The position numbers and the translations under genes are program-made. Source: an uncultured Pseudomonadota bacterium (GTDB lineage: Bacteria; Myxococcota_A; UBA796; SXON01). Taken from it: a DNA stretch of 39,483 nucleotides. The stretch covers positions 1 through 39,483 of the forward strand of contig CAIMSU010000296.1 of assembly GCA_903844155.1 (NCBI GenBank), written 5' to 3'. A model generated the notes under the pieces. It was not told the origin of the DNA. It worked only from the letters and a program-made list of their open reading frames with translations, and did not search any database. Shown here one piece after another: positions 30,221 through 36,930 of the stretch (its first letter is position 1; every line of letters starts with the position of its first letter).

Positions 30221-32257
30221 GTGTCCAACGACCGGCTCAAGCGGCCTGACCCGAAGGAGATGGTCGCCAAGGCGCCGCCCTCCCGGCGGGCCGATCTCGA
30301 AGCAAAGCTTCAGAAGCCGGAGATCCAGCGGGCCTTGCAGAAGGCGGAGGGTGGGGTCGACGCGGACCTCGCGGCACAGCTCGCGCCGACCCTTGGCAAC
30401 GACGCGATGCAGGAGCTGCTGAAAGCCGGGAGCGAGACGTCGACGGCGTCAACAAACGCGCAGGCGACGGAGCAGGGCGCGGAGGAGGAGGCCGAGGAGC
30501 TCGAGCAGGAGCCCGAGCTGGAGGTGGAGGGCGAGGCGCAGGCGATCCTGCCGAGCTTTTCGGGGCCGTCCGGGTCGGCGGGCGGGAGCCCGTGGGCGAT
30601 GGGGAAGTTCTTCGGGGGCGATGGAGATGGCGATGCTGACGCCGTCGTAGCGGCGACCGGGCGTTGGCGGCCAATGCCGTCGCTGCCCGAGCCGGAGGAC
30701 ATCCCGCTCGAGAGGGCGGAGGCCGGGGACGGTGCCGCCGCTGAGGACGACGGGGCTGACTGGCTGGGCGAGGCCCGTGAGGCGCTTGGATGGGCCCCGT
30801 GGACGCGCGCTCTGCTTCAGCGCGGGCTTCGCGATCCGGTGTTGCTGTGCCGGCCGGATTTTGAGCCCGAGTCGCTGGACGACGCGCCAAACACGGCGTT
30901 CGGGCGGGCAAGGGCGGCGCTTGCGTTGCTCGCCTCGCACGCCGAGACGGTCGCGGCGAGGCGGCTGGCGTGGACACTGCTTGGGGCCGGCTCGGCGGTC
31001 GCTCCGGGGGCGATGGGGTACTCGGGGGCGACGGCGCGGGCGCTGCACGGGCTCTCGCGGGTGCTGGCGCTGCTGCCCAATCGTGCAGACTGGGAGCGGA
31101 TCCTGGAGGCGCGCCTGTGCGTGAACGCACGGCCGTGGGCCGAGCGGGCCATTGGGGCGCTTGAGCCCGGAACGCTCGGCGCTGTCGCCTTGATCGACGC
31201 AATGGTCGAGGCGGGCGCGCTGCCCGGCGCGGAGGGCGGCATTCCGGTGGACGCTGACGACGCTTTCGTGCCCCACCCGGCGGCTGTCGAAGCGCTGGCG
31301 CTCGCCGGCCGGATTGCGGAGATTCCAAGACTTGAACCATGGGTTCCCGACGGATTTTCGCTGGACCTTACGGCCGCCGACTTGTGCGATGGCGTGGACG
31401 CGGTGCTCGACGCCTTCACGAAGGGGGAGGTGGTGACGCCGGTGCTCACCACCGCGAAGCTGGAGCCGCTGTTCACGGGGATGAACGCGCTTTTGGACGC
31501 GCTGGGGTTGGCGCAGGTGGAGCTGGCGGCGGCAGGGACTGCGGCGGTGGCCGGCGGCGTCGACGTTGGAGCGGTCAGGGCGGCGCTGCTCGGCGGTGAC
31601 GCGGCACTTTCGCGCCTGGCGCGGCGCCTGGTCCGGTGCGGGCGGGGGATGGAGGCGCTCCTGGCTGGGACGGATTCGGCTGCTTTGACGGCGCTTTCAT
31701 GGGAGGCGGTCGGCGTTCGGGAGGGGGCGGTGGTCGCGCGGGAAACCGCGCTGGTGGCGTTGGCAGGGCTCGTCGCGCGGCGGAAGCCCCGATCCCGGCC
31801 TGACAAGCCGGCGATCGCGGTGAACCGCTGGTTGGATGCGGCAAAGTTTTCGGAGGCGCGGGCGAACGCGCCGCTCGCGCTGCAGCCGGGGATTGCGCTT
31901 CGGGAGGGGCGGCCTGGTCTGGCGTTGGAGGCGCTGAATCGGCTCTCCGGCCCGGGGCAACTGCGGCCTCGGGGCTGGCTGCCGGCGGTGTGGTCGCTGC
32001 AGGTGGGGGTGAGGCTAGGGGTGGGAGGCTCCGTCGTGAAGCCGGCGATGGCGCTGGTGGCGCGCGGGAAGGCTGATGGCAACGCCTTTTCTGTGGCCGA
32101 GGGTGCGATCGCGTTGACGGCAACCGGACTGCCGGATCGTTTCGCACCGCTGATCGCGGCGGGGGTGTGGCTGCGCGAACGCGAGGAAGGCGGCGCGCTT
32201 TCGTTGCTGGTGGCGCGTTGGGGGGAGCTGCGGCGGGCGAGCGACGGGCTGACATAG
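30221..32257 (+). CDS. Large hypothetical protein with LGNxAMQxLL motif
   Basis: A 678-residue protein that I cannot assign to a family. The first ~110 residues are basic then strongly acidic (a Glu-rich run around residues 85-110) and contain LAAQLAPTLGNDAMQELLKAG. That recalls the LQxxLGNxAVxxLL motif seen in proteins linked to contractile injection systems and DUF4157-type proteins; the match is from memory and is short. Residues about 180-670 are Ala/Leu-rich helices that look like an irregular helical solenoid (ARAALALLASHAETVAARRLAW, ETALVALAGLVARRKP). No signal peptide or membrane segment. The start is GTG 30221, six bases after the previous stop. Helical repeats and the coupled neighbours suggest a scaffold role; this is inference only. 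Confidence 0.75.
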   Translation: MSNDRLKRPDPKEMVAKAPPSRRADLEAKLQKPEIQRALQKAEGGVDADLAAQLAPTLGNDAMQELLKAGSETSTASTNAQATEQGAEEEAEELEQEPELEVEGEAQAILPSFSGPSGSAGGSPWAMGKFFGGDGDGDADAVVAATGRWRPMPSLPEPEDIPLERAEAGDGAAAEDDGADWLGEAREALGWAPWTRALLQRGLRDPVLLCRPDFEPESLDDAPNTAFGRARAALALLASHAETVAARRLAWTLLGAGSAVAPGAMGYSGATARALHGLSRVLALLPNRADWERILEARLCVNARPWAERAIGALEPGTLGAVALIDAMVEAGALPGAEGGIPVDADDAFVPHPAAVEALALAGRIAEIPRLEPWVPDGFSLDLTAADLCDGVDAVLDAFTKGEVVTPVLTTAKLEPLFTGMNALLDALGLAQVELAAAGTAAVAGGVDVGAVRAALLGGDAALSRLARRLVRCGRGMEALLAGTDSAALTALSWEAVGVREGAVVARETALVALAGLVARRKPRSRPDKPAIAVNRWLDAAKFSEARANAPLALQPGIALREGRPGLALEALNRLSGPGQLRPRGWLPAVWSLQVGVRLGVGGSVVKPAMALVARGKADGNAFSVAEGAIALTATGLPDRFAPLIAAGVWLREREEGGALSLLVARWGELRRASDGLT

Positions 32258-32305: not shown

Positions 32306-33505
32306 ATGACCGACGCCTGGATTTTCGATGCCGTCCGGACGCCCCGCGGCCGTGGAAAGGCCACCGGTGCGCTGTACGCGACGCGGCCCGTGGACCTGCT
32401 GAGCCAGGTGCTCGCGGCGTTGAAGGCGCGGACCGGCGTCGAGACCGTCGACGACGTGGTGATCGGCTGTGTGACGCAGACGGGCGAGCAGGGCGGCTGC
32501 CTTGCCCGGTTTTCGGCGTTGCAGGCAGGTCTTGGGATGGAGTCGCCGGGGGTGATGGTCAACCGGTTCTGCGCCTCCGGGCTGGAGGCGGTGAACCATG
32601 CGGCGGTGATGGTCGCTTCGGGGCACTACGACGTGGTGATCGCGGGCGGCGTCGAGAGCATGTCGCGGGTCGAGATGGGGAGCGATGGTGGGGCGATCTG
32701 GGACGCGCGCACCCAGACGCTGGTTGGGAGTGTTCCGCAGGGTGTAAGCGCCGATCTGCTGGCGACGATGCACGGCGTGACCCGGGGTGACGTCGACGCG
32801 TTCGCGATCGAGAGCCATCGGCGGGCGTGTGCGGCTGAGGCGGGCGGTGCGTCGTCGCGGAGTCGGGTGCCGGTGGTCGACGAGGCGGGCCTGACGGTTC
32901 TGGACCGGGACGAGACCCCGCGTGCGGACACCACAATCGAGGCCTTGTCCAAGTTGAAGCCGAGTTTTGAGATGATGGGGCGGCAGTTCGGGCTCGACAC
33001 CCTGGTGCGTCGCGCCTACCCGCAGATCGAGCGCATCGATCACGTGCATCACGCAGGAAATTCCTCGGGGATCGTGGACGGGGCGGCGGCGGTTCTGGTG
33101 GCGAGCAGGGAGGTCGGCGAGCGGCTCGGGCTGAAGCCCCGGGCGCGGATCCGCGCGATGGCGGTGGTGGGCGATGAGCCCTTCGTGATGCTCACGGGGC
33201 CGTTGCCGGCGACGCGGAAGGTGCTGAAGCGCGCGGGAATGGCGGCCTCGGACATCGACCACTACGAGGTGAACGAGGCGTTCGCGGTCGTTCCGATCGT
33301 CTACCAGCGCACGTTCGACATCGATCCGGCGCGGATCAACCCGCTTGGTGGCGCTATCGCGCTCGGGCACCCACTCGGAGCCACGGGCGCCATGCTCGTG
33401 AGCACAGCGCTGGACAACCTCGAACGAACCGGCGGAACCACCGCCCTGCTCACCCTTTGCGTCGGCGGTGGCATGGGCATCGCCACCATCCTGGAGCGTG
33501 TCTGA
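32306..33505 (+). CDS. Acetyl-CoA acyltransferase (thiolase)
   Basis: A 399-residue thiolase II-type enzyme that splits 3-ketoacyl-CoA with CoA in the last step of beta-oxidation. Catalytic residues are at the expected places: Cys89 in [11 protein letters not shown], His355 in [14 protein letters not shown] and Cys385 in LCVGGGMG. The N-terminus ([18 protein letters not shown]) and the loop VNEAFAVVP are typical of FadA/FadI enzymes. The stop codon overlaps the start of the multifunctional enzyme (TGATG), a classic fadA-fadJ type pair. Alone it could be biosynthetic (acetoacetyl-CoA), but the partner favours fatty-acid oxidation. A ribosome binding site and -10-like box precede it. Confidence 0.95.
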
Positions 33506-35640
33506 TGGCGACCGGATTCCTGACAGACATCGCGACGGCGGAGAACGGCGGCATCGCCACGATCACGATCCAGCTCCCCGGCAAGGTGAACAAGATAAAC
33601 GCCGAGTTTGGTGTTGGCCTGAGCGCCGCCTGGGACGAGGTGATGGGGGGTGCCGCGCGGGGTGTGCTGATTGTCTCGGGCCACAAGGACTTCTGCGTCG
33701 GCGCGGACCTCGACACCATCTTCGGCGTGACGGATCCGGCGGCGATCCTTGACCTGGTCCGCATGTTGGATGGGCTCTTTCGGCGGATCGAGACGTCGGG
33801 GATCCCGGTCGCGTGTGTGTTGGCCGGCTCTGCATTGGGCGGCGGCTTTGAGTTGGCGATGGCGTGTCACCATCGCGTTGTCGTCGACAGCCCGCGTGTG
33901 TCGCTCGGCTTGCCGGAGGTGAACCTTGGCGTGATCCCGGGCGCCGGGGGAACCCAGCGTTTGCCGCGGCTGATCGGCGTGCAGGCGGCGCTGGACCTGA
34001 TGTTGCAGGGCAAGCTGGTGCGCGGGAACAAGGCTGTAGTCGCGGGGCTGGCGCACGAGGCGGCGCCGACACCCGAGGCCGCTGTGGCGCTCGCGAGAGC
34101 TTGGCTGGCTGCGACAAAGCCGAAGTCGGATGCGGCGAAGCAGCCGTGGGATCGCAGCGACTACGCGTGGCCCGGGCTTTCACCGAACAGCGCAGACGGT
34201 CGCAACGTGTTCATGGCGGCCTCGGCGATGGTCTACAAGAAGACGGCCGGCGCTTTCCCAGCCGCGGACGCCATCCTTGCGGTGGTCCAGGAGGGCGCTC
34301 GGCTGAACTTCGACGGCGGCACGCTGGTCGAGGCGCGCGCCTTCGCCCGGTTGGCGACCTCCGGTCAGGCGAAGGACATGATGCGGACATTCTGGTACCA
34401 GCGCACTGCCGCGGAGAAGCAGGAGGGACTGCCGGTTGCACCTGCCGATCCGGGCATCCGCAAGGTCGCCGTGCTTGGGGCGGGGATGATGGGGGCAGGG
34501 CTTGCGGCCATCTGCGCACAGGCGGGCTACACGGTCGTGCTGCGCGACGTGGCACAATCGGCGTTGAACGCCGGGATGGCGCACGTCGTCAAGGGGATCG
34601 GCGAGCGGCTGAAGCACAAGTCGGCCGAGGAGCGGGCTACGGTCATCGGCCGGGTGACGGCCTCCTCCGAGATTTCGGACCTCGATGGCACCGATCTCGT
34701 GATCGAGGCTGTGTTCGAGAACGCCGACCTGAAGCACCGCGTCATCCGCGAGGTGGAGGCGCGCCTCGGCGCCCGCGCGATCTTCGCGTCCAACACCTCC
34801 GCTCTGCCGATCACCGGGCTCGCGGAAGCCAGCGTTCGTCCAGAGCAGTTCATCGGCCTGCACTTCTTCTCCCCCGTCGAGCAGATGCCGCTCCTGGAGA
34901 TCATCCGGGGCCGCGCGACGACGGAGGAGACGGTGGCCAGGTGTCTGGCGTTCTGCAGGGCCATCGGAAAGCTGCCGATTGTCGTGAACGACGGGTACGG
35001 GTTCTACACCACACGGGTGTTCTCGGCCTACATCCTGGAGGGCGCACAGTGTGTGGCGGAGGGCTACGACCCTGTGTTGGTCGAGTGGGCCGCGCGGGTC
35101 GCGGGCATGGTCGTGCCGCCTCTTCAGGTGTTCGACGAGGTCACGCTGCGGCTCGGCGACCATGCGTTGAGCCAGGCGGAGGCGTTTCGGCCTGGCATCG
35201 CGGGGTTGGCGGGCGCAAAGCTGGTGAAGGCGATGGTCGAGGCGGGGCGGATCGGCCGCGCCCAGGGCGGCGGCTTTTACGAGTACAAGGACGGGCGACG
35301 GGAGGGAATCTGGCCGGGGGTAGCTGCGTTTTGCGCGCCCCGGGTGGCGGGCGACGCGGTCGCGCAGGTGCGCGCCCTGTCCGAGCGGTTGCTGCTCGCG
35401 CAGGTGGCGGAGACGCTGCGGGCGTGGGACGAGAGGATCGTGACACGGCCACAGGACGCCGACGTTGGCGCTGTGTTCGGGATCGGCTTTGCACCCAACA
35501 CAGGTGGGCCGCTGGCGTATGTCGACCGGCACGGGGCCGCAGCGGTGCGGGCGCGGCTCGTTGAGTTGGCGAGCACGTTGGGGGCACGCTTTGCACCTTC
35601 GCCGGGCTGGGCGTCCACGATTGTCCCGTTCTATGGCTGA
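33505..35640 (+). CDS. fadJ: Multifunctional enoyl-CoA hydratase/3-hydroxyacyl-CoA dehydrogenase
   Basis: A 711-residue FadJ/FadB-type enzyme that hydrates enoyl-CoA and oxidises 3-hydroxyacyl-CoA in beta-oxidation, feeding the thiolase encoded before it. The N-terminal hydratase (about 1-190) has the oxyanion-hole segment [21 protein letters not shown] and the catalytic Glu region [21 protein letters not shown]. The NAD-binding domain (about 315-495) starts [20 protein letters not shown], with SNTSALPIT and [19 protein letters not shown]. Two C-terminal helical dehydrogenase domains follow ([37 protein letters not shown]). ATG 33505 overlaps the thiolase stop. FadJ is preferred over FadB on operon order, but the two cannot be fully separated by eye. 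Confidence 0.95.
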
Positions 35641-35947
35641 TTCGCCTATGGACCGGTCGATGGAGGCCACGAACATGCGTCCGGGCTCGAAAGCATGGCG
35701 CGACGGGCAAGAGACAGCCAGCGCCGGACCGGAGGGGCCGGTGGTGGCTGGCCAAGTCGAAGGCGGGACTTCGTGCCCCGCACGAAGCGTGCCTTCGACG
35801 CGGTCAGCAGCGGTCGCGCCAGTTGAAACCGTCGTAGGCCTGGAGCGGTCAAGGGAAGCCACAAACACGCGTCCCGGTCGGAAAACATGGCGCGACGGGC
35901 AAGAGACAGCCACCACCGGGCCGACGGGGCCGGTGGTGGCTGCATGA
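35633..35947 (+). CDS. Possible small internal-repeat protein between fadJ and tsaD
   Basis: A 104-residue open frame whose ATG lies inside the last codons of fadJ (ATGGCTGA) and whose TGA overlaps the tsaD ATG (ATGA), the arrangement expected of a coupled gene. It contains two copies of a motif, EATNxRPGxKxWRDGQETAxxGPxGPVVA, encoded by the two 102-bp direct repeats, which lie exactly 192 bases apart and so in the same frame. Against it: no ribosome binding site, no known family, low-complexity composition, and only seven of the 16 differences between the copies fall in third codon positions. The DNA may be a non-coding repeat that happens to be open. No function is suggested. Confidence 0.3.
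   Translation: MADSPMDRSMEATNMRPGSKAWRDGQETASAGPEGPVVAGQVEGGTSCPARSVPSTRSAAVAPVETVVGLERSREATNTRPGRKTWRDGQETATTGPTGPVVAA
35649..35750 (+). repeat. 102-bp direct repeat, copy 1
   Basis: Aligns without gaps to 35841-35942, with 16 mismatches by my count (about 84% identity). The central 22 bases (CGCGACGGGCAAGAGACAG plus CCA) are identical. Its 3' part forms an imperfect stem, CAGCCAGCGCCGG against CCGGTGGTGGCTG, where the other copy is perfect. Confidence 0.9.
35756..35799 (+). repeat. Two-step hairpin between the direct repeats
   Basis: GTCGAAGGC (35756-35764) pairs with GCCTTCGAC (35791-35799), and inside it CTTCGTGC (35769-35776) pairs with GCACGAAG (35780-35787) around a CCC loop, with a small internal bulge. 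There is no T-run after it, so a terminator role is doubtful; it looks like a structural RNA or repeat element. Confidence 0.8.
35841..35942 (+). repeat. 102-bp direct repeat, copy 2, ending at tsaD start
   Basis: Second copy of the 35649-35750 repeat, same length and no gaps. It ends one base before the tsaD ATG. Its last 36 bases form a perfect hairpin that includes the GGTGGTGG stretch, the only candidate ribosome binding site of tsaD. Confidence 0.9.
35907..35942 (+). promoter_or_regulatory. 13-bp hairpin covering the tsaD ribosome binding region
   Basis: CAGCCACCACCGG (35907-35919) pairs perfectly with CCGGTGGTGGCTG (35930-35942) around a ten-base loop. The right arm holds GGTGGTGG and stops one base before ATG 35944. 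In the RNA this stem would hide the initiation region, so it could limit tsaD translation unless upstream translation or a factor opens it. Confidence 0.6.
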
Positions 35948-36930
35948 TCGTCCTCGGCATCGAGACCTCGTGCGACGACACAGCCGCGGCTGTATTGGAC
36001 GCATCGGGCGTACGCTCGGACGTTGTGTGGAGCCAGGCGCTGCACGCGAAGTACGGCGGCGTTGTTCCCGAGCTGGCGAGCCGGGCGCACGCGGAGCAGA
36101 TTGTAGCGGTCGTTCGCGCGGCTTTGGCGGAGGCGGGCATCGATCGGCCGGACGCGATCGCGGTCACGGCGGGTCCGGGGCTGATGGGCGCTGTGTTGGT
36201 CGGGCTCGCGTTTGCAAAGGCAGCGTCGATTGGGTGGGGCGTGCCGTTCATCGGCGTCAACCACCTAGAAGGGCACCTGCTCTCCGGGTTGATGGAGCCT
36301 GTCGTGGATGGGGTCGCCGTGGCCTACCCGTTTCTGTCACTCGTCATCAGCGGCGGCCACACGACACTCTACCGCGTCGAGGGCCTTGGCCGGTACGGCA
36401 CCGTCTCGGAGACCGTCGACGACGCGATCGGCGAGGCGTACGACAAGGTCGCGAGGATGCTGGGGCTTGGCTATCCGGGCGGGCCAGCGGTGGACGCGTT
36501 GGCAATGCAGGGACGGCAGACTGTCAGCCTGCCACGTCCCCGGCTGGCCAGGGTGGGGTCGGCCGTGGATGACATGAGCTTCTCCGGGCTGAAAACGGCT
36601 GTTCGGACGCTGCTCGAGAAGGATCGCGGCGTGGCCCCGGCGGATGTCTGCGCGTCGTTCCAGGCCGCGGTGGTGGACGTGGTCGTGGACCGCGTGACGC
36701 GCGCCGCACATGTGTGGGGCATCCGCGATGTGTTGGTCGGGGGCGGCGCGGCGGCCAATGAGGGCATTCGCGCTGGCCTGCGGGCGACCGGGCTGCGCGT
36801 TGTGCTTCCGCCCAAGCGGCGATGTACGGACAACGCGGCGATGATCGCCCATGTCGGACGGCTAAGGCTGCTGGCGGGGCAGCCGGCGGACGGCCTGACG
36901 CGCACGGCGGAGGCGCGGTGGGCGGTCTGA
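35944..36930 (+). CDS. tsaD: tRNA N6-threonylcarbamoyladenosine transferase TsaD
   Basis: A 328-residue TsaD, which with TsaB and TsaE transfers the threonylcarbamoyl group to A37 of ANN-decoding tRNAs. ASKHA-fold motifs are present: VLGIETSCDDTAAAVLD at the N-terminus, VVPELASRAHAEQI, VTAGPGLMGAVLVGLAFAK, the metal-binding HLEGHLLSG, LVISGGHTTLY, DDAIGEAYDKVARMLGLGYPGGPAVD, SFSGLKTAVRTLLE and VGGGAAANEGIR with the C-terminal Asp in CTDNAAMIAHVG. The length is typical. ATG 35944 begins the conserved strand; the repeat leader described separately ends just before it. The end overlaps the glycoside hydrolase start by 13 bases. No tsaB or tsaE is nearby. Confidence 0.96.
   Translation: MIVLGIETSCDDTAAAVLDASGVRSDVVWSQALHAKYGGVVPELASRAHAEQIVAVVRAALAEAGIDRPDAIAVTAGPGLMGAVLVGLAFAKAASIGWGVPFIGVNHLEGHLLSGLMEPVVDGVAVAYPFLSLVISGGHTTLYRVEGLGRYGTVSETVDDAIGEAYDKVARMLGLGYPGGPAVDALAMQGRQTVSLPRPRLARVGSAVDDMSFSGLKTAVRTLLEKDRGVAPADVCASFQAAVVDVVVDRVTRAAHVWGIRDVLVGGGAAANEGIRAGLRATGLRVVLPPKRRCTDNAAMIAHVGRLRLLAGQPADGLTRTAEARWAV

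Follow-up and report, generated by a model that had tools for sequence, protein, structure and literature searches.

The 303-nt gap between fadJ and tsaD is best explained as an insertion of a non-autonomous mobile repeat of 192 nt and three domains, which occupies about 70 places in the genome and is not a conserved regulator of tsaD; we put the probability of this reading at roughly 85%. It draws on copy number, architecture, covariation, restriction to one species within its order, empty orthologous places and location in frame within open reading frames. As the element has neither a target-site duplication nor a terminal inverted repeat, its mobility is deduced from its dispersal and from the empty sites rather than from a transposon signature, and the empty sites compared are those of related species rather than of other members of this one.

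The tandem pair between fadJ and tsaD

The window, i.e., the whole stretch of 39,483 nt that was analysed, is one contig (C296) of a fragmented genome assembly. The repeat search of the window located two gap-free 102-nt copies at 35649-35750 and 35841-35942, 84% identical and 192 nt apart from start to start, in agreement with the initial annotation. The 303-nt length of the gap, counted from the fadJ stop at 35640 to the tsaD ATG at 35944, was likewise borne out. In a search of the whole genome, copy 2 matched copy 1 with E = 8e-26, which excludes chance likeness.

The initial annotation had taken the 102-bp stretch for the repeat unit and the two-step hairpin for a separator of two such units. 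Both the copies and the hairpin are real, but the natural unit is a 192-nt element, in which a two-step hairpin at the 5′ end (P1) is followed by a core of ~75 nt closed by the P2 helix and by a terminal hairpin (P3). The hairpin belongs to copy 2 as its 5′ domain, and the leader consists of a 5′-truncated copy and a complete copy arranged head to tail (Table 1). The terminal stem is indeed imperfect in copy 1 as had been described, while that of copy 2, said to be perfect, is 94% paired, with perfect outer pairs and one inner mismatch. The same unit emerges from the rest of the genome, where the match of most isolated copies spans window positions ~35746 to ~35943 and hence starts with the two-step hairpin. 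In arrays, each copy starts within the final bases of its predecessor, and the period is 192 nt; the length of most full copies is 196 nt by the end definition chosen.

Table 1. Features of the fadJ–tsaD region (positions in the window).
Feature	Position	Strand	Basis and remarks
fadJ-like gene	33457..35640	+	ORF list, coding score; C-terminus aligns with G001 and G003; name from the first reading; ends directly before the insertion
Copy 1, 5′-truncated type-1 element without P1	35649..35750	+	Repeat search; profile positions 71-196
GGAGG, ribosome-binding-like	35662..35666	+	Lies 8 nt ahead of the leader-ORF start codon
Leader ORF, 90 codons, through both copies	35675..35947	+	TGA overlaps the tsaD ATG (ATGA)
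Imperfect P3 stem closing copy 1	35715-35750	+	
Copy 2, type-1 element of full length, following copy 1 head to tail	35746..35942	+	Tandem unit 35751-35942 (192 nt)
P1, two-step 5′ hairpin of copy 2	35747..35808	+	Arms 35747-35764/35791-35808; repeat search and folds
P2 domain of copy 2, closing the core	35813..35896	+	Arms ~35813-35820 and ~35889-35896; alignment fold and pair counts
P3, terminal hairpin of copy 2	35907..35942	+	Arms 35907-35922/35927-35942; ends one base before the tsaD ATG
tsaD (MIVLGIETSCDDT...)	35944..36930	+	Start buried at the foot of P3

Fold and covariation

Besides the type-1 element of the window, a second type exists in which the sequences of the P2 helix and the core differ while the order of the domains is the same, and mosaic exchange between core types and hairpin types is seen among the copies. 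Diverged relatives with further core types were encountered at L288 4431-4273 (C319), L289 3619-3450 (C220) and L287 4724-4561 (C298). When folded, these three copies showed likeness in P1 and P3, extending to P2 in one case, which suggests that the family is older than the recent expansions of type 1 and type 2. No pairing between the two ends of the element, P1 and P3, appears in the folds, and there is no terminal inverted repeat or long 5′-3′ stem.

Covariation was assessed on an alignment of 20 type-1 and eight type-2 copies with P1, P2 and P3 assigned by hand. Within this alignment, 94.7% of the cells pair, compared to 32-44% with slid partners, a control that retains the kinship of the copies. 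Changes on both sides of a pair were counted in 37 cells against 9.8 ± 2.3 after shuffling (0 of 500 shuffles as high), numbers that are inflated by kinship and refer to a structure derived from the same copies. Run on 34 type-1 copies alone, RNAalifold returned the same helices with hardly any covariation term, as these copies differ too little from one another; P3 and the contrast between type 1 and type 2 supply most of the signal. Since the fold covaries, the aligned copies indicate that selection has acted on the folded strand of the element, be it RNA or single-stranded DNA.

Copy number and distribution

The genome to which the window belongs comprises 8.13 Mb in 375 contigs with 4.98% contamination. 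At least 45 matches were obtained in it with one 102-bp copy as query and at least 46 with 35745-35943, some of them inverted or partial in either search. The most conserved 25-mer, with up to three mismatches allowed, occurs at 51 sites compared to none for the reversed control; 38 of these are exact, five have one mismatch, five have two and three have three, of which one (C344) lies in a clear copy and two are doubtful. The type-2 core added 17 further copies, counted as matches of at least 81% extending over at least 97 nt of the type-2 query. The merged list has 75 entries, at least four of which name one place twice. The element, in two or more core types, is therefore present at about 70 places, as single copies or in head-to-tail order, and this figure is a lower bound as about two dozen contig ends fall inside copies. 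Copies are found in either orientation relative to the neighbouring genes and several lie directly behind gene ends. Nearly all places are without link to tsaD, and the suggestion of the initial annotation that a dispersed repeat had been inserted is thereby confirmed. A motif like GGCGTTTTTGGCGCG, possibly another local repeat, recurs beside two copies, in the right flanks of L107 (end of C70) and L009 (C343).

A fragmented assembly with this degree of contamination, and with so many contig ends inside copies, raises the question of an assembly or binning artefact. We regard its probability as almost negligible, as copies lie within many long contigs with ordinary flanks and the order of fadJ and tsaD on both sides of the insert matches that of two genomes of the same genus (see below).

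Outside this genome the element was sought at several levels. Only short, chance-level matches (best E 0.0023) were given by blastn in 37 relatives, and with a covariance model (R1, an automatic structure without P2) the own genome alone matched among 63 genomes of the order, with none in the other 62. Among 377 genomes of the phylum, the model retrieved the own genome and three weak matches of 28-31 bits (E 5e-4 to 3e-3 per genome); these were rejected, being 77-106 nt long against a model of 197 positions and about as many as chance would yield for 377 genomes at that threshold. The model searches ran with stricter filters on the best 40 (order) or six (phylum) candidates per genome at most, a setting under which diverged relatives could be missed. 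A core 20-mer matched 20 other genome stretches, which were dismissed after profile comparison revealed little beyond the seed matches. The viral contigs yielded no hit, the window gave no Rfam match at the gathering score and only chance-level matches below it, and a text search of the literature, which does not reach sequences and largely leaves out subscription papers, returned no description of this repeat. Within its order, the element is restricted to this species.

The tsaD junction in relatives

TsaD was found in all 20 genomes searched, the own genome included, and is about equally far (41-51%) from the nine genomes that gave a match out of ten tested. The fadJ–tsaD spacers of relatives were compared. 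In the same-genus genome G001, the two genes overlap by ATGA, and in G003, of the same genus, they are separated by 18 nt; both junctions are without the element and keep the order of fadJ and tsaD seen around the insert. The fetched tsaD flanks of the other 17 relatives contained no fadJ, that of G010 being cut at the contig start. At the tsaD locus of G002 (L241), an apparent homologue of the 678-codon gene of the window (30221-32257) ends directly upstream of tsaD, and the fad genes lying between the two in the window appear to be absent. From the junctions of G001 and G003 it follows that the 303-nt leader was inserted in this lineage, where it appears to have replaced the normal fadJ–tsaD junction.

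The first of two readings offered by the initial annotation was a cis-regulatory RNA; as a riboswitch-like or protein-binding leader with tandem aptamers, it would control tsaD. A strong and conserved fold, the tandem placement directly before the start codon and the burial of this start by P3 of copy 2 would all suit such a leader. Nevertheless, a dedicated regulator would not be expected at about 70 places, nearly all of them elsewhere than before tsaD and some inside ORFs, nor in either orientation to its neighbours. The element is absent from the same-genus junctions and from the other 62 genomes of the order, and corresponds to no Rfam family. The proposal is thus already largely refuted, and we consider it very improbable.

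The second reading, a dispersed repeat recruited as the leader, stands in its first part, and recruitment is plausible in view of an ORF that is encoded by the element and overlaps the tsaD start by ATGA. No Shine-Dalgarno sequence was seen before the tsaD ATG, which lies at the foot of P3 and is mostly paired by prediction (unpaired probability ~0.1-0.2). The promoter scan of the leader found no sigma-70-like site. Copy 1 provides a GGAGG followed by an ATG, which opens a frame through both copies (Table 1). In the 37 aligned full copies, an ATG never follows the motif GTCACGAAC (19 have ACG, six have other codons and 12 are without the exact motif), and the start codon of the leader ORF seems to be peculiar to copy 1 of this place.

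Following the preferred reading, the insertion would have broken a tight fadJ–tsaD junction. Ribosomes may start at the GGAGG-ATG of copy 1, translate both copies, melt P3 on their way and reinitiate at the tsaD ATG via the ATGA overlap, so that the leader ORF would restore a translational coupling comparable to that in G001. Some of this arrangement could arise by chance, as the ATGA stop follows from the start of tsaD itself (ATGATC): whatever open frame arrives there in this register would end in the same way. As tsaD is usually an essential gene, the place is of interest as a case of a mobile repeat in a tight junction of such a gene, where it possibly supplies a replacement translation signal.

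Copies inside genes

All 75 entries were screened for location within ORFs, many of them being too close to contig ends to be judged; genes were called by a home-made hexamer scorer, not a standard gene finder, and its overlap rule made it miss tsaD. Five places, with six copies, are located within ORFs whose frame stays open through the copy and whose coding score is positive on either flank. The clearest is recQ, for which protein matches were obtained in 20 of 20 genomes, the own genome included. Here the element is inserted in frame, and it is absent from all 16 aligned homologues, which have a short loop only (18 homologous loci were taken, and two were dropped as their ORF was not located by motif). 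By this alignment we take recQ as the decisive case of an insertion within a gene. In a sulfotransferase, the copy sits between two matched stretches of the domain. Of the other three hosts, one is a membrane protein that contains two tandem copies and has no Pfam match; the remaining two are a pentapeptide-repeat protein and a TonB-like protein with a 5′ fragment. An insert of 192 nt equals 64 codons and would keep the reading frame.

Four of the five places use one and the same antisense frame. Among the type-1 copies, which are not independent of each other, this frame is free of stops in 34 of 36, compared to 2-19 of 36 for the other five frames and ~20% for shuffled sequences. Changes per codon position in type 1 (0.127, 0.156 and 0.134) reveal no third-position excess, and the frame is closed in all eight type-2 copies; by these two measures, no selection for the encoded peptide is seen at the codon level. 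Two further genes touch copies, both named by sequence reading: a serine-hydrolase-like gene that ends inside a copy and so gains a new C-terminus (C226, L304 14454-14648), and a pseudouridine-synthase-like ORF that reads out of a type-2 copy at its N-terminal side (C26, L300 1-141).

The in-gene copies also bear on the idea of a static structured sequence that is useful to the host, e.g., a module for mRNA stability or gene ends, spread by recombination or gene conversion instead of transposition. The copies right behind gene ends would agree with it, and the mosaic exchange of cores and hairpins resembles recombination. A gene-end module is ill suited to the interior of recQ and of a sulfotransferase domain; besides, the listed copies have no T run after P3, and some 70 places were reached within one species lineage. 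We hold this explanation to be improbable.

Insertion sites and the search for a mobilising enzyme

The edges of the element were examined in 27 copies taken as isolated, a few of which are tandem copies with another copy on the left. In all 27, a G stands immediately before the element, and the joint on the left is usually GGNTG with N mostly C or G. Target-site duplication is absent: the mean longest match of the 15-nt flanks is 3.78, against 3.78 ± 0.17 for shuffled pairing. The recQ site alone has GCGATC on both flanks, suggestive of such a duplication.

Under the mobile-repeat reading, copies would insert as a folded strand beside a GGNTG-like motif, moved by a transposase encoded elsewhere. 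With GGNTG as part of the target, arrays of 192-nt period could grow when a new copy inserts after the GGCTG at the end of a resident one. The IS200/IS605 elements transpose by a single-strand chemistry. A single-strand movement of this or of REP-like kind fits the element because of its terminal hairpins, its head-to-tail joints and the absence of target-site duplication.

A narrower version of the same reading names the enzyme, the element being of REP/REPIN type and moved by a RAYT (Y1 tyrosine transposase). The traits just listed speak for it, REPINs too are described in tandem clusters (PMC3116915), and a Y1_Tnp-family gene does exist in the genome. The search for this family returned one gene over the cut-off and one match below it, neither linked to the element. 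The gene, a RAYT-like ORF of 378 codons (C268, L174 5459-6647), has palindromes of another family on both sides (TATCAAAA...GACGACGTC...TTTTGATA), unrelated to the element, and is a REP-RAYT-like locus of its own. As it carries its own palindromes and no copy of the element lies within 12 kb of it, a link of this RAYT-like gene to the element is not supported. Moreover, REPINs are inverted doublets of short REPs, while the element has three domains and no inverted doublet. A RAYT-driven origin is hence rather unlikely, though less so than the other alternatives.

Comparison with known systems

Several families of small folded repeats resemble the element in part. The pneumococcal BOX elements are likewise modular folded repeats that can alter neighbouring genes and carry ORFs, but as portrayed in PMC3049150 they possess terminal inverted repeats, target-site duplications and a variable length, whereas the element has neither of the former and a fixed unit length. 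A classical MITE combines TIR and TSD, and the element has no target-site duplication. REPINs share its non-autonomy, hairpin ends and tandem clusters, and a single-strand movement is proposed for them (PMC3116915); they differ in the inverted doublet and in the linked RAYT, which the element lacks. The Caulobacter CIR also has no terminal inverted repeat and is built of two long-hairpin arms and a linker, according to PMC2229807, which reports CIRs as not found intragenically. The element has in addition the third, P2-closed domain, arrays and copies inside genes. It thus resembles CIR in its arms and linker and REPIN in its clusters and hairpin ends, and falls under the definition of neither.

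In its way of working, the element is like the Rickettsia palindromic elements (RPE), short folded repeats found between genes and in frame inside conserved protein genes, with mobility inferred (PMC2229807, PMC10969869); PMC3733652 was also consulted. RPE and similar protein-coding MITEs share with the element a length of ~100-200 nt, a strong fold, dispersal in one lineage and in-frame copies in genes. The element is likewise a many-copy repeat dispersed in one lineage and inserted in frame in conserved genes, but it has 192 nt, three domains, head-to-tail arrays, only five in-ORF places, no codon-level peptide conservation and no known sequence relation to RPE. Having no terminal inverted repeats, it is not filed as an RPE, though it works like one.

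Tentatively, and with more doubt than confidence, the element might stand for an undescribed class of small mobile sequences. Its members would be folded strands of three domains and 192 nt (64 codons) that join head to tail by insertion after GGNTG, exchange their core with the fold kept and can be read in frame in either orientation; the insertion at tsaD would have become a translated coupler that makes good the ATGA hand-over it had itself destroyed. It is chiefly from Rickettsia that folded repeats are known to spread in frame into protein genes, and there, in the literature drawn upon here, the means of movement is unsettled. A second case, in a large-genome lineage, with two core types in one fold, head-to-tail joints and no duplication, would offer a comparative handle on how such repeats move.
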